A DNA stretch of 64,000 nt from Hydrogenobaculum sp. 3684 (lineage in GTDB: Bacteria; Aquificota; Aquificia; Aquificales; Aquificaceae), in contig NC_015557.1 of assembly GCF_000213785.1 (NCBI RefSeq), positions 1,158,664 to 1,222,663 on the forward strand. Direction: 5' to 3'. The stretch's first letter is position 1. Each line of letters starts with the position of its first letter. The position numbers were made by a program, and so were the translations under genes. The notes under the pieces were generated by a model. The model worked only from the letters and a program-made list of their open reading frames with translations, was not told the origin of the DNA and did not search any database. Positions 31,867 to 61,013 of this stretch are shown here, one piece after another.

Positions 31867-32498
31867 ATTTTATAAAAGTTTACGATTTTGATTCAATAGA
31901 GTCTTCGTCTTATTTTTTACTTAGATTTTTCCTAAAAGCCAAAAAACTAAAACTAAACATAGCCTTAGCTGGTGGTAGCACGCCTTTATATTTGTATGAG
32001 CTTATGTCAAAATACGATTTTCCCAATTTTAAATTTTTTCTTACAGATGAGCGCTACGTTCCAAACGATCACAAAGATAGCAACTATCACAATATATCAA
32101 AATTTTTAAATGTAGAACCCGTTTATAAATCTGGTGATATTGAAAAAGATTGTGAGGAGTTTTCAGATATTATCAATAAAAAACCAATAAACATAGCTTT
32201 GCTTGGTATAGGAGAAGATGGTCATAGCGCTTCTATTTTTCCAGATAAACGTATACTAAAATCCTGTGAAAACACGCTAATAAGTGTTGGTCCAAACAAT
32301 ATACTTCGTATATCGCTAAACTATAAAGCTTTATCAAACTCAAAGCTTATATTTTTTATATCAAAATCAAAAAAATCTGTGGTTTCAAGGCTTTTAAAAG
32401 AAAAAAATACAATAGCAAATGAGTTTATATCAAACAACAATTGTAAAAAACCAATTCTTGTATCAGATGGTATGAAGGATCTATTCAATTCTTTTTAA
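31851..32498 (+). CDS. pgl: 6-phosphogluconolactonase
   Basis: Hydrolyses 6-phosphogluconolactone between Zwf and Gnd. 215 aa of the NagB/DevB fold: LNIALAGGSTPLYLYE (phosphate loop), FFLTDERYVPNDHKDSN (catalytic acid region) and LLGIGEDGHSASIFP. It starts 16 bp inside zwf. The 3' end overlaps the convergent TPR gene by 18 bp. With it the whole oxidative pentose phosphate branch lies in 2.9 kb. Confidence 0.93.
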   Translation: MVYILDFIKVYDFDSIESSSYFLLRFFLKAKKLKLNIALAGGSTPLYLYELMSKYDFPNFKFFLTDERYVPNDHKDSNYHNISKFLNVEPVYKSGDIEKDCEEFSDIINKKPINIALLGIGEDGHSASIFPDKRILKSCENTLISVGPNNILRISLNYKALSNSKLIFFISKSKKSVVSRLLKEKNTIANEFISNNNCKKPILVSDGMKDLFNSF

Positions 32499-33875
32499 AC
32501 TAAGCAACTCTTGTGGATTTTTTATCTTAAAAGCAAATGGAAACTCTTTTTTAAATAAAGCTTTTTTATCTTCTGGTACTTTTGCAAACACTATAATAGC
32601 TTTGTTGTTTTTCACCATATAAGTATCAAACCCAAGTTTTTTAGCTTTTATATAAATATCAGAAGCATATTCTTTTATGTAGTAAACTCCAAGTTGGTAG
32701 TAGTAGAAAGAAGGAGCCTCTTCTACATGGACCATTTTTAAACTAAGCAACTCTTGTGGATTTTTTATCTTAAAAGCAAATGGAAACTCTTTTTTAAATA
32801 AAGCTTTTTTATCTTCTGGTACTTTCGCAAACACTATAATAGCTTTGTTGTTTTTCACCATATAAGTATCAAACCCAAGTTTTTTAGCTTTTATATAAAT
32901 ATCAGAAGCATATTCTTTTATGTAGTAAACTCCAAGTTGATAGTAGTAGAAGTTTTTGGTCTCTTTCTCTTTATTGTTATTATTAACTACTTTATTTTGG
33001 TTTTTTGGCTTATTTTCTTTGGTTGACTCTGCGTAGGATATAGGTGGATTCTCAGTATTTTTATTTACATACTCTAATGTTATAAGTTCTTTTGATAGTT
33101 CTATAGCTTTGTCTTTGTAATGCTGGTTTATATCTTCATTAAACAATATTTTCCTTATCAATTTCGATGCTTCTTTAAATTTGTTAGCTTCCATATAGCA
33201 CTTTGCTTTTAGAAGCAACATATCTGGCATACTTGAAGCACCTATATTATTTTTCTCACTATCTATAAGATAGATTACTTTTTCTTCTATGTCTGGTTTG
33301 CTACACATGTTGTTGTCTACGTAGGCTCTTGCTAAATCAAACTTTGCTACGTTAAAATCTCTATCGTAGATTATTGCTAAATTTAGATTTTTAATGTAAT
33401 CTTTTGTATCGCCTTTTAATTTGTATATGTTTGCTAGTTGATAGTAAGCTTGGGGCCTTAAGCTACAATAATCGTTTTTTATACATTTGTTAAGAGTGTC
33501 TATTGCGTCCTTGGTTTTATGTTCTGCTTGTAATATTATAGCTTTGTCTAAAATAGCTTGATAGTAGTCTGGTTTTATATGTAGTGCTTTGTCTATATTT
33601 TCTAAAGCTTTTTTGTAATCACCTACGTTGGCGTAAGCAAGGGCTAGTTTGTCGTAAGCTTTGTAATAATATGGGTATTTTAATATAGCTTTTTTAAAAT
33701 TTGCTATGGCAGCAGCATAGTTTCCAGCAGTTAAACCAGCCATTCCTATATTGTAATAATACTCTGAATTTTTACTTGATAGCTCTTCTATATTGTGGGT
33801 GTTCTGGGCACAAGAATATATGCTAAAAATAGAAAACACTACAAAAGCAATATAAAAAATATAGTTAAGTTTCAT
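32481..33875 (-). CDS. TPR lipoprotein with two near-identical C-terminal SPOR-like domains
   Basis: 464 aa. The N-terminal signal ends at a lipobox-like FSIYSC, so it is probably a lipoprotein. TPR repeats cover ~38-250 (YYNIGMAGLTAGNYAAAIANF, YKAYDKLALAYANVGDYKKAL and others). A low-complexity Asn/Lys linker (~275-305) leads to two SPOR-like domains (~309-381 and ~390-461), nearly identical in DNA. SPOR domains bind denuded septal glycan, so a cell-wall scaffold is plausible. A -10 box lies 7 nt before the ATG. Confidence 0.75.
   Translation of the reverse strand: MKLNYIFYIAFVVFSIFSIYSCAQNTHNIEELSSKNSEYYYNIGMAGLTAGNYAAAIANFKKAILKYPYYYKAYDKLALAYANVGDYKKALENIDKALHIKPDYYQAILDKAIILQAEHKTKDAIDTLNKCIKNDYCSLRPQAYYQLANIYKLKGDTKDYIKNLNLAIIYDRDFNVAKFDLARAYVDNNMCSKPDIEEKVIYLIDSEKNNIGASSMPDMLLLKAKCYMEANKFKEASKLIRKILFNEDINQHYKDKAIELSKELITLEYVNKNTENPPISYAESTKENKPKNQNKVVNNNNKEKETKNFYYYQLGVYYIKEYASDIYIKAKKLGFDTYMVKNNKAIIVFAKVPEDKKALFKKEFPFAFKIKNPQELLSLKMVHVEEAPSFYYYQLGVYYIKEYASDIYIKAKKLGFDTYMVKNNKAIIVFAKVPEDKKALFKKEFPFAFKIKNPQELLSLKRIE
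32492..32951. repeat. 217-bp direct repeat, 243-bp period (duplicated SPOR domain)
   Basis: Copies at 32492-32708 and 32735-32951 differ at only two positions I can find (32580 T/C and a G/A near the end). The offset of 243 bp is 81 codons, so the frame is kept. Confidence 0.95.
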
Positions 33876-35184: not shown

Positions 35185-37170
35185 TTAATATATATTAAAG
35201 TTGTTGTTAATTACTTTTCTTACAATTGATTTTAAATCGTATCGTAGATCTTCTGAAGCTATCTCTTGATTTATACCAAAGTCTTTTTTTAACAAGTTTT
35301 TTGCGCTTTTAATAAGATCAGCGTAAAGCTCATCGTCTTCCATGTAAGAGGGAAATTCTATTGTAAATTCTACAATGATATTAAAAAGCCCGTTGTTTGT
35401 AGTTTCTAAATCTATATCGTTTCTTAGAGTCATTATTATATACCCTTCAAAACTATCTAGTATTGCTTTTAGCTTGCCTATATCTTCTATGTTGCCTATA
35501 TCTTTTAACACTAAGATATCTAAAAAGCTTATATCTTCGTAAGAGGGTATTTCAAACGTATTTAAATCTATTACTCCAAATACACCTTTTTGGGTTTCTT
35601 TTATAAAGTTTATGAGGTTTTCTATTTTTAACATTGTATAAGCCTTATCTTCGTATCTTACGCAAACCCTTTTTAATTTTGTAAGCGTTTGTGTGAATAT
35701 ATTGTAAAAATTTTGAAGGGTATTTGGTATTTCTATTTTTGTTTGTTCTTTTGCATTTTCACCTTCTATATTTGGGATGTAGTTTATTTTCTGTATAGAA
35801 GTGCTTAGAGTGATATTATCGCATTTCGAATCTAAGGAATTGGCATAGCCTTTCGATAGCTCAGAGAAATGCCTATGGCACACTTCTTTTGAAACTCCCA
35901 AGTCTCTTATTGTCAGGTTTGCGTCGTTTATGATATTTTTTAAAAAGCTTGAAAACTTTATGCTATCTATACCAAACCTATTTAATCTATTTAACATGAT
36001 AAATCCAGCCTTTTCATCGTTTTGCATTATAAACTTTGTACCTAGGATAGAAAGATGTATTGTAAAAGATAGGTTTATGGCTTGCTTTGATAGTTGTAAT
36101 TTATTAGTGGTGCTGTATTTGTAGTATGGGGCATAAGTATTGTAACCAATGATAATGCTTTTAATGAAATCATCAAAACCGTAAAATACCTTTTCGAAAT
36201 ATTCTTTGTTTAATTTTATCATATCTTTTCCAAACGTATCTTTTTCAAATATTCTTGATATATAAGAGTATAATTTTGATGGTGTTTTTACTAAATTTAG
36301 TATTTGGGTTTTAATATCGTTGTATTTGTTTTTGTTTAGGAAATCTATAACGATAAGAAGTCCATCTATCATAGATAGCACAAGAAGGTCATAAAATCTA
36401 CTTCTTTGGGTGCAAGCGATTTGGCATATGTTGTCAAAGATGGCTGTTTGAAGTATAAGTATTTTCTCTATTTCTGTTAGTTCTTTTAGCTCATCTTTAT
36501 ACTCTGTAATAGCTTCTTTTGATATAGCTTTTAATGTAAAATCCCTTATCCTTGAGAGTCCAAGTCTTATAATGGCGGATTTTATATCTTTTATATCTAT
36601 GCCTTTGTTTGAATAAGCGTTGTTTGCAATCTTTAATATATCTTCTTCTAATTTTGGCATGTTTCTAATAAGAGCATATATTTTATCTACATTGGTGTTT
36701 TCATCGGTAAGCTCCATTATAATAGGCATTACTCTTTTTATAAAATCATGAGCTTCAAAAGCTTCTAATGTATCTATTTCTATCTTAAATTTTGGCTCTT
36801 TTCTTATGTGCTCTGGTTTTTTGTGTAGTTTTATGGCTTTTTGTAATGTATCTTTTGATATGGGCTTTTCAAATACGATTCCTACAAGTATGCCACGATT
36901 TACAAGTATACCACGGTTTACAAGTATACCACGATCTCCAGGTGTGCCACGATCTTTAGAATTTTTGATTTGATTCATATTATCTGAGACTACCTTGGCT
37001 TTAACCTCTTCTCCTAGTATGTTTATGGAAAAGTTATCATTTTCTAATAGAGTTTTTAGAATATCTTGGCTTGATAGTTCTATTAGAGCACCTTGGTAGG
37101 ATATATTTTTTATAATGCCATATTGAGTTTCTATATGTGTATAAAATCTTAGATGTTTTCTATTGTTCAA
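35185..37170 (-). CDS. PilZ-HDOD domain protein
   Basis: 661 aa. The N-terminus (~1-118) looks like PilZ: RKHLRF then KNISYQGALIEL (the DxSxxG-like motif, here N-I-S-Y-Q-G), suggesting c-di-GMP binding. It is interrupted at ~72-96 by an 18-bp minisatellite. Residues ~125-330 form an HDOD domain (MPKLEEDILKIANNAYSNKGIDIKDIKSAIIRLGLSRIRD), a signalling fold without hydrolase residues. The C-terminal part is unassigned and holds an antisense copy of the palindromic element at ~429-455. TTG is the only start near the N-terminus, with no ribosome-binding site. Confidence 0.75.
   Translation of the reverse strand: MNNRKHLRFYTHIETQYGIIKNISYQGALIELSSQDILKTLLENDNFSINILGEEVKAKVVSDNMNQIKNSKDRGTPGDRGILVNRGILVNRGILVGIVFEKPISKDTLQKAIKLHKKPEHIRKEPKFKIEIDTLEAFEAHDFIKRVMPIIMELTDENTNVDKIYALIRNMPKLEEDILKIANNAYSNKGIDIKDIKSAIIRLGLSRIRDFTLKAISKEAITEYKDELKELTEIEKILILQTAIFDNICQIACTQRSRFYDLLVLSMIDGLLIVIDFLNKNKYNDIKTQILNLVKTPSKLYSYISRIFEKDTFGKDMIKLNKEYFEKVFYGFDDFIKSIIIGYNTYAPYYKYSTTNKLQLSKQAINLSFTIHLSILGTKFIMQNDEKAGFIMLNRLNRFGIDSIKFSSFLKNIINDANLTIRDLGVSKEVCHRHFSELSKGYANSLDSKCDNITLSTSIQKINYIPNIEGENAKEQTKIEIPNTLQNFYNIFTQTLTKLKRVCVRYEDKAYTMLKIENLINFIKETQKGVFGVIDLNTFEIPSYEDISFLDILVLKDIGNIEDIGKLKAILDSFEGYIIMTLRNDIDLETTNNGLFNIIVEFTIEFPSYMEDDELYADLIKSAKNLLKKDFGINQEIASEDLRYDLKSIVRKVINNNFNIY
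35806..35885 (+). repeat. Palindromic element copy F, inside the PilZ-HDOD gene (antisense)
   Basis: Begins TAGAGTGAT and contains GCATTTC, TCTAAGGAA, GATAGCTCAGAGAAATGC and GCACACT at the same spacing as the tandem copies at 60.6 kb. The gene reads it on the opposite strand as an open frame (residues ~429-455, HRHFSELSKGYANSLDSK). Confidence 0.85.
36884..36955. repeat. 18-bp minisatellite, four units
   Basis: Units ACAAGTAT(G/A)CCACG(A/G)TT/CT at 36884, 36902, 36920 and a divergent 36938. They encode six-residue repeats of the DRGILV/NRGILV type inside the PilZ domain. Confidence 0.93.
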
Positions 37171-45357: not shown

Positions 45358-46581
45358 ATGCAAAAGAGAGAAAAAATGTATCTTCTCGATACAAACATAA
45401 TTTCATTCCTTGTTAAGGAAAACAAAACAAGAGAGAAAGAAGAAGACAAGATTAAAGAAGAAAGAATAGTATACGAGGTATTTAAGCTTAAAGCACAAAA
45501 TGCTATCATTAGAATACCAATTACAAGCTATATTAGGAGGTATTATAGTATGAATTTGATTACCAACTTTGGTAAAAAAGTAGCTCAAATTGCATATGTA
45601 GTTTTCGTCATATTGTTTGTGCTATATTTTATTTTTAGCGTAAAAAGTCTTCCTAATGTAAATAATTTTGAAAAAGCGGGTATTATTTTTCTATTTTTTC
45701 TTCCTGTAATTTTGTTTATTTGTGTAATTCTGTTAGTGAAGTCCGATTATAAAAAGTTGTCCGATTATAAAAAGTTATTTTATAACTCGATTATGGTTGC
45801 TTGTTTTATGCTTTTCCTATTTCTAGGTCTTGTCCTATCAGAAAACTTAAGATTCTTAAAAGCAAATCGACTAAATGCAGGTTTTATTTTATTTATTTTA
45901 TATGTTCTTGCTTTAAAAGAATCAAAAGAACTTTTACCTGAAACAGATTCAAAATTACTTGAACTAGTTTCAAAATTAAGTTCATGTTTAAAAATTGAGG
46001 TTCCTATTAGCGTCATTATCATTATCGGATTGTTTAATTATAGTTTTGCTAATCATAGTTTTGCTTGTTTTGTTGCTGTAATTATTATAATTATTTTAAA
46101 TTTATTGAGAAAGAGAAATGTAGAAAATATTACAAGAATAATTAGAAGAGCATTAGCAGAAATGCCTGTACATATAATTTACTTCTTTGCACATCTACTT
46201 TACTTCTCTCGGTTGCTTATAATATATATTTTAAATTTATTGAGAAAGAGAAATGTAGAAAATATTACAATAATAATTAGAAGAGCATTAGCAGAAATGC
46301 CTGTACATATAATTTACTTCTTTGCACATCTACTTTACTTCTCTCGGTTGCTTATAATATATCTGATATTTTTATCTGTTTTCATAAAAAGTAATGTATA
46401 TGGTTTCATAAAAAGTATAAGTTGCATAAAAAGTATAATAGTTATCAAACCTGATCTTAAATTTTATATCATGGGTATATTTATTATCTTGTTTGACCTT
46501 ATAGTTAATTACTTTATAGTTTATATAGTAGACAAGTTTAATATAGTAGACGAGCTTAATAAAAAACTCTTTAAAAAATAA
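45358..46581 (+). CDS. PIN-domain fragment fused in frame to a repetitive multi-spanning membrane protein
   Basis: 407 aa. Residues 7-60 are a VapC-like PIN start (MYLLDTNIISFLVKENK, later IIRIPITSYI), but the fold's remaining acidic residues are absent. After ~residue 65 the protein is a hydrophobic membrane protein with about 8-10 helices and no known family. A second start at 45550 has AGGAGG (45535-45540) nine bases ahead, so the membrane part may be made separately. The gene holds at least four in-frame tandem duplications (18, 15, 135 and 18 bp units). Confidence 0.6.
   Translation: MQKREKMYLLDTNIISFLVKENKTREKEEDKIKEERIVYEVFKLKAQNAIIRIPITSYIRRYYSMNLITNFGKKVAQIAYVVFVILFVLYFIFSVKSLPNVNNFEKAGIIFLFFLPVILFICVILLVKSDYKKLSDYKKLFYNSIMVACFMLFLFLGLVLSENLRFLKANRLNAGFILFILYVLALKESKELLPETDSKLLELVSKLSSCLKIEVPISVIIIIGLFNYSFANHSFACFVAVIIIIILNLLRKRNVENITRIIRRALAEMPVHIIYFFAHLLYFSRLLIIYILNLLRKRNVENITIIIRRALAEMPVHIIYFFAHLLYFSRLLIIYLIFLSVFIKSNVYGFIKSISCIKSIIVIKPDLKFYIMGIFIILFDLIVNYFIVYIVDKFNIVDELNKKLFKK
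45741..45776. repeat. 18-bp tandem duplication
   Basis: GTCCGATTATAAAAAGTT twice in a row (45741-45758, 45759-45776), encoding SDYKKL twice. Confidence 0.95.
46036..46065. repeat. 15-bp tandem duplication
   Basis: AAT(T/C)ATAGTTTTGCT at 46036-46050 and 46051-46065, one difference; encodes N-Y/H-S-F-A twice. Confidence 0.9.
46093..46362. repeat. 135-bp tandem duplication
   Basis: Copies 46093-46227 and 46228-46362 abut exactly and differ at one base that I can find (AGAATAA versus ATAATAA). They encode a 45-residue unit containing LLRKRNVENIT and ALAEMPVHIIYFFAHLL. Confidence 0.96.
46525..46560. repeat. 18-bp tandem duplication (diverging)
   Basis: ATAGTAGAC(A/G)AG(T/C)TTAAT at 46525-46542 and 46543-46560. 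Confidence 0.85.
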
Positions 46582-53625: not shown

Positions 53626-56600
53626 TCAGTTACCGCATTCTTCGCAATAGCCTTTTTCTTTCATTATCTCGTCTAAAGGCATTAGATTATCGCTTTCAAC
53701 GAGTTTGCCTTTGTTACTATTTTTTGGCTTCGAAGATGATGCACTGCTAACAGTTTTAGCTTGAGTGGTTTGGGAAAATGCCTCTACAATATGTTCCAAA
53801 TCGTCCTCTGAGCTTTTGGATGCTGGTTTCTGTTCCTTAGATTCTAACTGTGATGATTGCGGCTCTTTCAAGTCCTCATGCACGTATTTTCCTTCGGTTT
53901 TTATCTTTGCTGGCATAAAGGCGTAGTATGTGGCTTTTAGTCCGTATTTCCAAGCTTTTAGATATATTTCCATTATCTTTTGTGGGTCTCTGGTGTTGAA
54001 GTATAAGTTTCTTGATATGGAAGAATCAATCCATTTTTGAAGTACAGCCGCTTGTTTTATATAGACTTCGGTGTCTATTTCGTAGGCGGTTTTGTATATA
54101 TCTTTTATCTCTTTAGGTATTTCTTTTATGTCCTGTATAGAGCCTTGTTGAAGTAGTACGTCTTCTCTTAGCTTGTCCCAAAGGCCTAATCTTTTCAGAT
54201 CGCGTATAAAGTTTTCGTTCACTTCTAAAAATCTTCCAGCTATGTTGGTTCTTGAATAGACCAAAGCGTAATAGGGCTCAAAGCTTTGAGAAGTGCCAGC
54301 TATTATAGATATTGTGGCTGTGGGCGCAAGCGTTGTCTGGCATGCGTTTCTTATACCTTGCTTTACTTTTTCTCTTAGTTCTTCCCAATTAAATGTTGGT
54401 AAAGTGTGCCAAGGGCCGTTCTCAGAGCTATTGAGTGCCGTTGCCTGGTCTTTAGCTTCGAAACGCGTCGACACCGCTCTAGTGTCATCTTCCGGTATAT
54501 CGTCAAGTCCTACATACTTATCAACAAGATTTTTATAATCTATAGTGTGCTCATAGCCGTTTTCTGAGCTATTGAGTGCCTGTGAATGTTCCTTAGAGAT
54601 GAAATGCGCCATAGTCGCTCTATTCTCATCCGCATAGTTTTGAATCATGTCATTGTAGGGCGTGGCATACTTGTCGTTGGTGAAAGATCTTTCTCTAAAA
54701 AGATGCTCTAGAGTATCTATTGGTAGGATTCCCTTTGACCAGTCCGAGCCCTCGAAGTTTGGATAAGTGCCTCTTTCTTTGGCAAGTTCTACGGAAGTTT
54801 CTATAGCCACATAAGACATCGTTTCTCCTATTTTATCTAAAAGCTTCAAAGCTTCTTTTGAGTCTACTGGTAGTTTTAGCTTTTCTATCATATCTTGATA
54901 TCCCATAAACCCAAGACCTATTTTCCTGCTTTGTTTTGTGCCTTTTTCCACAGCCTCTAAAGCATAATAGTTGGCATCTATAACGTTATCTAAAAATCTT
55001 ATCGCTTTTCTTATAACCGCTTTAAACTTTTCCCAGTCAAAAGTGTTGTTTGATAAAAATTTAGGCAATACCAATGAGCCTAAGTTGCAAGACTCTATAG
55101 AATCGTAGGTAGATACCAAAAGTTGTTCAGTACATAGATTTGTGGTAAGGATTGTCCCAGTATGTTTGTTTGGATGTCTTATGTTTATAGGATCTTTAAA
55201 TGTGTACCAAGGCTCTCCAGTTTGTATGGTGTTTTCTATAGCCTCTTTAAATAGCTCCACCGCTTTTATTTTTTTATGCCTTATCTTTCCCGATAGAGCT
55301 TTTCTTATACATTTTGAATATTCTCTAGAAAACTTTTTACCGTAGGTGCTAACTAATTTTGGACAATCAGCTGGGTCAAAAAGATACCAGTCTCCATTTT
55401 CTTCTACTCTTCTCATAAACTCATCGTTTAAGAAAAGAGCAATCTTGAGGTTTTTAAACCTTTGGGAATCATCGCCCCATTTTCTTTTGGTCCTTATAAA
55501 ATCAAACACGTCAAGATGCCATGGCTCCAGTGAAGCCAGTGCTGAGCCTCTTCTTCTTCCACCTTGAGATACCGCTGTTATTGTCTCATCTATTATTTTT
55601 AAAAACGGTATTATACCTGAGGATTTTCCTTGAATGCTTCTTATTATTGAGTCTTTTGCCCTTAGTTTTGTAGCCGGTAATCCAACTCCTCCGGCGTGTT
55701 TGTTTAACATGCCTACTTGTTTTACAGTTTCAAAGATTTTAGAAAGATCGTCTTCAAAATCCACTACAAAACAAGAAGAAAGCTGCGGAAATCTTGTGCC
55801 AGAATTAAATAGCGTTGGAGTGGATGGGATAAACTCCATACTTGACATCATGTGATAAAACTCTATAGCCCAATGGTTTCTATCTTCAGGGGTTTTTTCC
55901 ACCAAAGCTACGCCCATTGCCACTCTCATCCAAAACCATTGAGGAGCTTCTAAGATGTTTCCAGTATCCAAATCTTTTATAAGGTATCTATCCATGAGGT
56001 TATAAAGACCGTTAAACTTTAAAAGTTGGTCTCTTTTGGGTACCAACTCAAGAGCAAGCATTTCAAGGTCATAATAAGAAGCTAATTTTTCATCTAAAAG
56101 CCCAAGCTCCACAGCGTTGTCTATGTAGTCTATAAAAAGCTCTTTGTAGGCTTTTTTGGGTGAGTACATACCACCAAAAGCTTGTTTGTATATTCTTTGT
56201 AAAAGCACATTTCTTGCCATGGCGTCGTATATCGGGTCATCTATGGCCCTTGTAAGAAGAGAATGAAGTATATGCTGGAATATGGCAGCGGTTTCTATAC
56301 CATCAAAGAGGTTTATCTCTATATCTTCCATGATCTCGTCTATGTTGATATTATTTAAATCCTCCATTGTCCATTCTTCTATAGTGTGCTGGTTCGTGGC
56401 AGACTTGTAGCCGTTCTCAGAGCTATTGAGAGGCTGTGAATGTTCATTAGAGTTGAAATGCGATTGCATCGCTCTAGTGTGCTGTAAGCATTTCTCTGAA
56501 CTTTGGAGTGCCTGTGAATGCTCCTTAGACCAGAAATGCGATTGCATCGCTCTATCTTGGGCAGATACATCTTTTGTGGTTTTCCACTCTTTTAGCAAAG

Positions 56601-56679
56601 ATAAAGCATTTTCTAAAACCGTCCTTATCTTTAAAAGGTCTAATTTTTCTCTTGCACCTGAGCGTTTAATAACTTCCAT
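53626..56679 (-). CDS. nrdA: Ribonucleoside-diphosphate reductase alpha subunit carrying in-frame repeat insertions
   Basis: 1017 aa. Reduces ribonucleotides. Core motifs: LSSCFVVDF and SCNLGSLVLPKF (the redox cysteines), TNLCTEQLL (thiyl-radical Cys), GGRRRGSALASLEPWH, the TYYAF tyrosine pair (radical transfer) and a C-terminal GYCEECGN tail. These features fit class I. It carries five copies of an 80-bp element (residues 42-99, 686-712, 733-759 and a degenerate one ~938-965) between core blocks; the peptide is RAxxxxF-x-S-KEHSQ-A-L-NSSENGY-x-HT. NrdB is not in the window. Confidence 0.92.
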   Translation of the reverse strand: MEVIKRSGAREKLDLLKIRTVLENALSLLKEWKTTKDVSAQDRAMQSHFWSKEHSQALQSSEKCLQHTRAMQSHFNSNEHSQPLNSSENGYKSATNQHTIEEWTMEDLNNINIDEIMEDIEINLFDGIETAAIFQHILHSLLTRAIDDPIYDAMARNVLLQRIYKQAFGGMYSPKKAYKELFIDYIDNAVELGLLDEKLASYYDLEMLALELVPKRDQLLKFNGLYNLMDRYLIKDLDTGNILEAPQWFWMRVAMGVALVEKTPEDRNHWAIEFYHMMSSMEFIPSTPTLFNSGTRFPQLSSCFVVDFEDDLSKIFETVKQVGMLNKHAGGVGLPATKLRAKDSIIRSIQGKSSGIIPFLKIIDETITAVSQGGRRRGSALASLEPWHLDVFDFIRTKRKWGDDSQRFKNLKIALFLNDEFMRRVEENGDWYLFDPADCPKLVSTYGKKFSREYSKCIRKALSGKIRHKKIKAVELFKEAIENTIQTGEPWYTFKDPINIRHPNKHTGTILTTNLCTEQLLVSTYDSIESCNLGSLVLPKFLSNNTFDWEKFKAVIRKAIRFLDNVIDANYYALEAVEKGTKQSRKIGLGFMGYQDMIEKLKLPVDSKEALKLLDKIGETMSYVAIETSVELAKERGTYPNFEGSDWSKGILPIDTLEHLFRERSFTNDKYATPYNDMIQNYADENRATMAHFISKEHSQALNSSENGYEHTIDYKNLVDKYVGLDDIPEDDTRAVSTRFEAKDQATALNSSENGPWHTLPTFNWEELREKVKQGIRNACQTTLAPTATISIIAGTSQSFEPYYALVYSRTNIAGRFLEVNENFIRDLKRLGLWDKLREDVLLQQGSIQDIKEIPKEIKDIYKTAYEIDTEVYIKQAAVLQKWIDSSISRNLYFNTRDPQKIMEIYLKAWKYGLKATYYAFMPAKIKTEGKYVHEDLKEPQSSQLESKEQKPASKSSEDDLEHIVEAFSQTTQAKTVSSASSSKPKNSNKGKLVESDNLMPLDEIMKEKGYCEECGN
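53785..53866 (-). repeat. Palindromic element copy D (degenerate), in nrdA
   Basis: Aligned over about 80 bp with weak but recurring blocks (TCTAAGGAACA, AAAGCTCAGAG, ACATAT-like end). Encodes QSSQLESKEQKPASKSSED. Weaker than the other copies. Confidence 0.55.
54402..54481 (-). repeat. Palindromic element copy B, in nrdA
   Basis: 80 bp, sense in nrdA. Begins AGAGCG, contains GCTAAAGAC, GGCACTCAATAGCTCTGAG and ends GGCACACTT. Encodes the RAVSTRFEAKDQATALNSSE peptide variant (residues ~733-759). Confidence 0.88.
54543..54622 (-). repeat. Palindromic element copy C, in nrdA
   Basis: 80 bp bounded by TA at both ends, sense in nrdA. Close to consensus: TAGAGCGACTATGGCGCAT, TCTAAGGAACATTCACAGG, CTCAATAGCTCAGA, GAGCACACTA. 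Encodes RATMAHFISKEHSQALNSSE (residues ~686-712). Confidence 0.92.
56382..56476 (-). repeat. Palindromic element copy A1, in nrdA
   Basis: 95 bp, sense in nrdA, with about 15 extra bases near its end (encoding SATNQ). Encodes RAMQSHFNSNEHSQPLNSSE. It abuts copy A2 and shares the TA. Confidence 0.9.
56475..56554 (-). repeat. Palindromic element copy A2, in nrdA
   Basis: 80 bp, sense in nrdA. Encodes RAMQSHFWSKEHSQALQSSE then KCLQHT; where the intergenic copies read TGCTAAAGCACAC (in-frame stop) this one reads TGCTTACAGCACAC. Confidence 0.92.
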
Positions 56680-60283: not shown

Positions 60284-60490
60284 ATGAGAAACCTTATCGT
60301 ATCTGCACCAAGGATGTTGGCTCTTTTAGGAGCTGTCTTGTTTATTGGGGCAAGTGCCCAAGCTTCACAAACTTACAAGGAAACTGGCATCTCAGCCAAA
60401 GCTGCTAATCAATCTTATCTTTTGGCTGAAGATGAAAACAAGCAAGAGGACAATTCTGAGGACAATTCTAAGGAAGACTCAGAAGATTAA
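60284..60490 (+). CDS. Small acidic secreted protein
   Basis: 68 aa. Residues 1-~28 are a signal peptide (RNLIVSAPRMLALLGAVLF then IGASAQAS). The mature part ends in an acidic Glu/Asp/Asn/Ser tail with a 12-bp tandem duplication (GAGGACAATTCT at 60446-60457 and 60458-60469) encoding EDNSEDNS. AAAGGAGGT (60268-60276) gives a strong ribosome-binding site. No family recognised; the tail could bind metal or calcium. Confidence 0.65.
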   Translation: MRNLIVSAPRMLALLGAVLFIGASAQASQTYKETGISAKAANQSYLLAEDENKQEDNSEDNSKEDSED

Positions 60491-60713
60491 TTGTAATCAG
60501 CTACCTCCCTCCTCCGTTTAATTTTATAATCCGCGGGTCTTTGGCCCTGCGGATACGTTTACATATACGAGGTAAGAGCGACTATGGCGCATTTCTACGC
60601 TAAGGAACAGACAAAGCCACTCAGAAGAATAAAGAAATGCTAAAGCACACTAGAGCGACTATGACGCGTTTCTACGCTAAGGAACATTCACAGCCTCTCA
60701 ATAGCTCAGAGAA
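60491..60713. other. Intergenic region with hairpin and tandem palindromic elements
   Basis: Contains a GC-rich hairpin at about 60530-60553 (TCCGCGGG/CCC-GCGGA with a bulge) that could end the small-protein transcript, then two copies of the palindromic element. Confidence 0.7.
60574..60652 (+). repeat. Palindromic element copy E1
   Basis: AAGAGCGACTATGGCGCAT...CACACTA. Its middle (CTCAGAAGAATAAAGAAATGC) has diverged. Inner arms GCATTTCT and GAAATGC can pair. Period to E2 is 77 bp. Confidence 0.9.
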
Positions 60714-60729
60714 ATGCTAAAGCATACTA
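60651..60729 (+). repeat. Palindromic element copy E2
   Basis: TAGAGCGACTATGACGC...CATACTA. Shares TA with E1. Its last 16 bp contribute the start codon and first codons of the rhodanese gene. Closest match of all copies to the nrdA copy A1/C blocks CTCAATAGCTCAGAG. Confidence 0.92.
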
Positions 60730-61013
60730 AGACTCTTTTAGATGTAAGAATGGATAAGAAAGAATTTGATGTGGATAAAGTGATGGATATGTTTTGTTGT
60801 AAAGAGTATATTTATATTCCTTTTGATGAGATTGTAGATAACGAAAATTTAGAGTATATGTTAGATAAATCAAAGGAATATTTTGTAGTTTGCAACAGTG
60901 GCAATAAAAGTAAATATGTGGTAGATATGTTAAATAGTTTAGGTTTTAAAGCTTTTAATATAGAAGGAGGATTAAAGGGATTGTTAGAAGATGATAAACT
61001 CAATGTTTCTTAA
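60714..61013 (+). CDS. Rhodanese-like single-domain protein
   Basis: 99 aa. TLLDVRMDKKEF near the N-terminus is the rhodanese LxDVR strand, and YFVVCNSGNKSKYVVDMLNSLGF holds the active-site cysteine loop (CNSGNKS), followed by NIEGGLKGL. So it is a thiosulfate sulfurtransferase-like or sulfur-carrier fold. MLKHTK at the N-terminus comes from repeat copy E2; without it no start is evident. It overlaps the ferritin-like gene convergently by 14 bp. Confidence 0.82.
   Translation: MLKHTKTLLDVRMDKKEFDVDKVMDMFCCKEYIYIPFDEIVDNENLEYMLDKSKEYFVVCNSGNKSKYVVDMLNSLGFKAFNIEGGLKGLLEDDKLNVS

Follow-up and report, generated by a model that had tools for sequence, protein, structure and literature searches.

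A 78-bp repeat with a shared TA in nrdA and other loci of Hydrogenobaculum, and its likeness to Rickettsia palindromic elements

Selfish palindromes that contribute to protein-coding sequence are known chiefly from the Rickettsiales, where genome decay is a possible excuse for their tolerance. The Rickettsia palindromic elements (RPEs) are short, dispersed and inserted in frame within many unrelated and often essential genes, with which they are translated (PMC2229807), and they have also been found in tmRNA (Delihas review, PMC2229807); the Wolbachia palindromic elements belong to the same comparison class. The TA-ended bacterial MITEs (Correia/NEMIS, RUP, ERIC) are likewise small, carry TA at both ends, lack a transposase of their own and sometimes form in-frame ORF fusions (PMC2229807, PMC10969869). 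REP/BIME sequences moved by RAYT have hairpin ends, and REPs have been described inside replication and repair genes (PMC3733652).

Here, a repeat of Hydrogenobaculum was analysed from a window of 64,000 nt (the whole stretch of DNA analysed) that includes the ribonucleotide reductase gene nrdA. Five congeneric genomes were compared: the window's own (G000; 1,552,775 bp, single contig), a sister genome (G003; 1,559,514 bp, single contig), with ~95% identity to G000 around most element sites, and three others; the congener G004 served as outgroup for nrdA and a glycosyltransferase gene. Element copies were called by covariance model (CM), with counts at E<1 unless otherwise given, and the comparison of empty and filled sites was limited to the stretches around matches and their counterparts and did not cover whole genomes.

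It is proposed, with a probability of about 0.86, that each repeat is a copy of a small mobile (selfish) element, non-autonomous and 78 bp long with one shared TA counted, which works like an RPE. RPEs measure 105-146 bp and form one long stem-loop, unlike the element described here, with its 78-bp unit and full-length folds close to those of shuffled sequences; further differences are the host (a free-living thermophile of the Aquificota), the TA ends, the tandem arrays and the apparent supply of start codons by some copies. It was not classed as an RPE proper, the length and fold features being unmet and no sequence relation having been found at the sensitivity of exact patterns, without one-by-one comparison to RPEs. 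The proposal is limited by the absence of a candidate enzyme, by the imperfectly inverted ends and by the lack of protein or RNA evidence for the inserts in mature products.

Copies in nrdA and empty sites between strains

The preliminary description, made from the window alone, had recognised five ~80-bp repeat copies within nrdA, two of them in tandem and one degenerate, and the covariance model finds all five (Table 1). It had also placed a common TA at the ends, with about 78 bp added per insertion, and this was confirmed: because the units have TA in common, one nrdA unit adds 78 bp, the exception being copy 2, which adds 93 bp because of a micro-repeat nested inside it. Copy 3 has 79% identity to the G003 copy, versus 89-93% in its flanks, and the degenerate copy 5 is better preserved in G003 (orthologous copy, CM E 6.7e-12), in agreement with the alignment. 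The nrdA gene of G004 has no element copy.

Table 1. Features of the window (positions are those of the window; CM, covariance model).
Feature	Position	Strand	Remarks	Evidence
Element copy within HDOD-domain gene	35806..35885	+	Antisense to gene (35185-37170, -), open frame; absent from G003, net 75 bp	Covariance model, empty/filled comparison
nrdA, ribonucleotide reductase large subunit	53626..56679	-	1017 aa, hosts five copies	ORF; Pfam PF02867 5e-177, PF00317 1e-26
nrdA copy 5, degenerate	53787..53867	-	Near C-terminus, residues 938-964	CM E 0.007
nrdA copy 4	54402..54481	-	Residues 733-759; G003 site filled too	CM E 2.2e-18
nrdA copy 3	54543..54622	-	Residues 686-712; G003 site filled by divergent copy	CM E 1.6e-19
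nrdA copy 2	56382..56476	-	Residues 68-99, tandem with copy 1, 93-bp unit; G003 site empty	CM E 1.9e-18
Micro-repeat core (14 bp) ACAAGTCTGCCACG	56395..56408	-	Nested within nrdA copy 2	Pattern match G000:1215058-1215071
nrdA copy 1	56475..56554	-	Residues 42-68, 78-bp unit; G003 site empty	CM E 1.2e-20; empty allele CCCAAGATATAGAAGAATGG
Leader copy, first of tandem pair	60574..60652	+	77-bp type	CM E 2.9e-19
Leader copy, second of pair	60651..60729	+	77-bp type; its GAAATGCTAA contains predicted start codon of next ORF	CM E 6.5e-20
Rhodanese-like ORF	60714..61013	+	First five codons (MLKHT) inside element	Pfam PF00581 7e-7

The repeat-encoded peptides, whose presence in NrdA of distant bacteria would have refuted the preliminary description, are absent from the other Aquificaceae NrdA and from the best solved homologue (5im3), and the inserts coincide with alignment gaps against these proteins, with query residues 665 to 761 standing against chain residues 736 to 746 of 5im3. 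Their suggested placement in surface loops is backed by gaps in sequence alignments only, the structure model being too poor: AlphaFold2 (seven sequences) gave a mean pLDDT of 51.6 for NrdA, with inserts below 50, and it is uninformative on loop placement because half of the protein is also below 50.

Between G000 and G003, filled alleles exceed empty ones by whole units at TA, and either strain can be the filled one, even within nrdA. At the first nrdA site, which holds two copies, the empty G003 allele reads CCCAAGA-TA-TAGAAGAATGG and the filled G000 allele CCCAAGA-TAGAGCG...CACAC-TATAGAAGAATGG; at nrdA residue 481 G003 is filled and G000, which is empty, reads GCC-TA-AATTTTT; and at a second helicase site a copy stands at TA in G003 and the site is empty in G000. 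These are the three cleanest pairs, with TA at both ends. Several other pairs are not clean, the tmRNA, glycosyltransferase and HDOD sites carrying small extra changes, and TA is at the join in all six sites, with TA making up 10% of dinucleotides. These empty sites are direct evidence of insertion and support the earlier inference of a frame-neutral mobile element, RPE-like yet distinct; as they are reciprocal and lie in two closed genomes, where the element inserts, how frames are filtered and what becomes of the peptides can all be measured directly. Although repeats are prone to misassembly, an assembly or sequencing artefact has practically no credibility as an explanation, as two separate genomes, each a single contig, concur at the shared sites and show clean differences at others, and the tmRNA insertion described below was reported independently (PMC4227106).

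Sequence, structure and dispersal of the element

The alignment of 35 full-length copies gives the consensus TAGAGCG-nnnnnnn-CGCATTTC...CTAAGGAACA..CA.AGCCACTCAATAGCTCAGAGAAATGC...GCACACTA, with a unit of 78 bp counting one TA and tandem copies having that TA in common. The element had been described as palindromic, which holds for its imperfectly inverted ends (TAG.G.G...GCATTTC and an imperfect inverse at the opposite end) and for two short covarying hairpins, one per end, each composed of TAG plus hairpin and backed by paired changes, but has little support over the full length. The covariation score of the hairpins is 0.18 versus 0.09 in shuffles, with none of 500 shuffles reaching it and slid controls at 0.02-0.09; full-length folds, however, barely beat shuffles (mean z -0.6 and -0.9). 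A long full-length RNA palindrome is accordingly not supported as the conserved structure, shuffles folding nearly as well. No covariation was seen by eye between the loops of the two hairpins, and no Rfam match was found near nrdA or the leader pair.

A repeat confined to nrdA would have refuted the preliminary description, but dozens of other loci carry it; G000 has 61 matches and G003 has 77, in ~40 clusters each. Only these two of 136 Aquificota genomes are positive, the other 134 having no match at E<=0.001, and exact matches to the pattern of shared ends number 18 in each of G000 and G003, the three remaining congeners having none. The element was not found in phages and plasmids or in viral contigs, and no exact-pattern match was obtained in 84,980 species genomes, a set that may omit the genome of the window and others very close to it. 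Variant copies at many loci of G000 and G003 have the ends of the main type and different middles (e.g., TTTACTTCGKGGGTTGACGAGGGAACAGGCACTGGTAGTGTAAGAAATGC), which suggests, as far as such sequence likeness can tell, that a superfamily of elements may exist.

Reading frames, constraint and RNA contexts

The copies had been said to be all sense and in one frame, and this is correct within nrdA (residues 42-99, 686-712, 733-759 and 938-964) but not genome-wide, where copies are read in three frames and on both strands. The 17 gene-internal sites comprise nine in sense phase 2, four in sense phase 1 and four in antisense phase 2, with none in the stop-rich frames; the three frames used are the element's three stop-poor frames. 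The host genes include nrdA, topA, a DEAD-type helicase, a class I tRNA synthetase (with half an element), GGDEF-EAL, EAL and HDOD genes, as well as CDP-alcohol transferase, TnpB and integrase-type transposase genes. The unit length, taken as the hit span, is a multiple of three in 22 of 24 gene-internal units versus 39 of 85 elsewhere (Fisher p=4e-5); these counts and those of frames are not independent, with nrdA giving five and the copies being related, and p-values are indicative only. The in-frame insertion into unrelated protein genes known for RPEs is thereby met. Removal of the element before or during translation, as a mini-intron or by ribosomal bypass, might be considered from its self-folding potential and from the essential genes hit; it is scarcely tenable, as length and stops would then be irrelevant, yet the gene-internal copies are stop-free and keep to multiples of three.

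With nrdA, the EAL gene and the helicase taken together, the inserts have a dN/dS of 0.68 versus 0.12 for the rest of the genes, with a tenfold higher dN in the inserts, the exception being the helicase copy (dN/dS 0.10, few changes). The insert peptides are thus close to unconstrained. This bears on the possibility that the inserts are functional peptide modules, such as an NrdA domain or regulatory tail, spread by selection for protein function: the motif RA..SHF.S.EH....LNSSENG..HT recurs in unrelated proteins, and both strains retain several of the sites. Such modules are nevertheless very unlikely, given the dN/dS contrast with the gene cores, the reading of one DNA in three frames on both strands to give unrelated peptides, the presence/absence polymorphism in nrdA itself and the occurrence of the element in tmRNA, in the RNA loop of a TnpB insertion sequence and in intergenic arrays.

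In G003, the tmRNA is 426 nt long (60287-60712) versus 348-349 nt in four congeners, and an element copy inside it (60554-60633) makes up the difference, so that the insertion into a structural RNA gene known for RPEs is also met. Lechner et al. (2014) described a previously unreported, hairpin-like insertion of 78 nt in pseudoknot 4 of the Hydrogenobaculum tmRNA (PMC4227106), and the passages on it draw no connection to a repeat family (PMC4227106). The published insertion is very probably a copy of the element, which would account for this oddity. No comparison was available for RNase P RNA, as RF00010 finds none in Hydrogenobaculum. Two TnpB-like insertion sequence copies in G000 (157293-159088 and 1304558-1306344), whose TnpB assignment is weak, carry the element immediately downstream of the gene, where it occupies the loop of a right-end hairpin predicted to form its stem whether or not the element is present; these insertion sequences may have carried the element along. 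Behaviour comparable to that of RPEs, including tmRNA insertion, in a thermophile that is compact, free-living and from a different phylum points to a recurrent, apparently convergent way for mobile DNA to inhabit essential genes.

For nine copies, the first ATG of the downstream ORF is the element's own (in GAAATGC), and the encoded proteins mostly begin MLKHT. A Shine-Dalgarno-like motif precedes that ATG in seven of these nine copies versus 8 of 66 other non-ORF copies (p=9e-5). The glycosyltransferase at 900459-901562 of G000 has a G004 orthologue without element that starts MKICLYV, and between that old start and the gene there are two copies in G000 and three in G003. Some leader copies thus appear to supply both ribosome site and start codon. 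In copies of 77 bp, stop and start overlap, the TAA of one reading with the ATG that follows (ATGCTAA), from which a restart of ribosomes at this point is inferred. Besides the pair in the window, leader loci in G000 are 900318-901562, which includes this glycosyltransferase gene, 269922-270081 and 1333060-1333138.

A broader proposal, which is put forward only tentatively and remains doubtful, is that one element family is compatible with genes in three ways, through open frames, as a closed hairpin in RNA loops and as a leader restart cassette (AGGAG ... AUGCUAA), and is moved at TA by an unrecognised kind of enzyme. In such a cassette, the stop of one unit would overlap the start of the next, and ribosomes would be passed along the array to the gene.

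Mobilisation, exchange between copies and a second repeat

Under the preferred reading of an RPE-like mobile element, it is inferred that insertion would depend on a trans-acting enzyme that cuts at TA and duplicates it, and that gene-breaking insertions would be purged by selection. The survivors would be read through as a tolerated loop of 26 residues, form a closed hairpin within the loop of a structured RNA or, in a leader, rebuild the translation start; tandem arrays and mosaic copies would then have formed by recombination between copies. At most shared sites the other strain's copy is not the nearest relative, the copy at nrdA residue 686 having 79% identity to its counterpart versus 94% to a copy elsewhere. 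This suggests exchange between copies, although the synonymous divergence between the strains (0.11-0.27) could explain part of the low identity.

A MITE moved in trans by a TA-targeting transposase of IS630/Tc1-mariner type, since lost or undetected, would refine this reading and is not an alternative to it. It is a possibility of some weight, held at less than even odds: the TA at both ends of clean insertions agrees with the target duplication of such elements (three clean pairs, TA at all six joins), and the short inverted ends, small size and several middles with common ends also fit, but the ends are poorly inverted, no related full-length transposase was found and the five congeneric genomes have no match to DDE_3 (IS630; PF13358). 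The element also differs from TA-ended MITEs in its weaker inverted ends, the lack of a partner IS630 transposase and its unusually many insertions within conserved genes.

Alternatively, two inverted REP-like hairpins could be moved via single-stranded DNA by a Y1/HUH transposase (RAYT or IS200/IS605), as TAG and a short hairpin supported by paired changes make up each end, and a TnpB/OrfB_IS605 gene in G003 and TnpB-like genes in G000 carry the element. This is unlikely, as no Y1 transposase (PF01797) was matched in G000 or G003 in a search whose control was positive in E. coli, so that the Y1/RAYT gene of REP/BIME systems is lacking, and clean alleles have TA at both ends. The tag beside the hairpins is TAGA or TAGT with a variable base preceding the T, and the GTAG/CGTC of REPs is therefore not fixed. 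The element was not filed as an IS630 MITE or as a RAYT REP because the matching enzymes were searched for and not found.

A second repeat, an 18-bp micro-repeat (core ACAAGTMTRCCACG plus 4 nt), is often tandem, in frame and also nested in the 78-bp element, with window positions 56395-56408, 54661-54674 and 36883-36953. Its exact copies number 70 in G000, 95 in G003 and 26-58 in the other three Hydrogenobaculum genomes, and an 18-bp difference in nrdA length between strains was traced to it. Among 84,980 species, no assemblies other than those of Hydrogenobaculum and Aquificaceae UBA2488 were found to contain the tandem form. The window additionally contains two near-perfect in-frame tandem duplications, one of 243 bp (32492-32951) inside the ORF at 32481-33875 and one of 135 bp (46082-46362) inside the ORF at 45358-46581.
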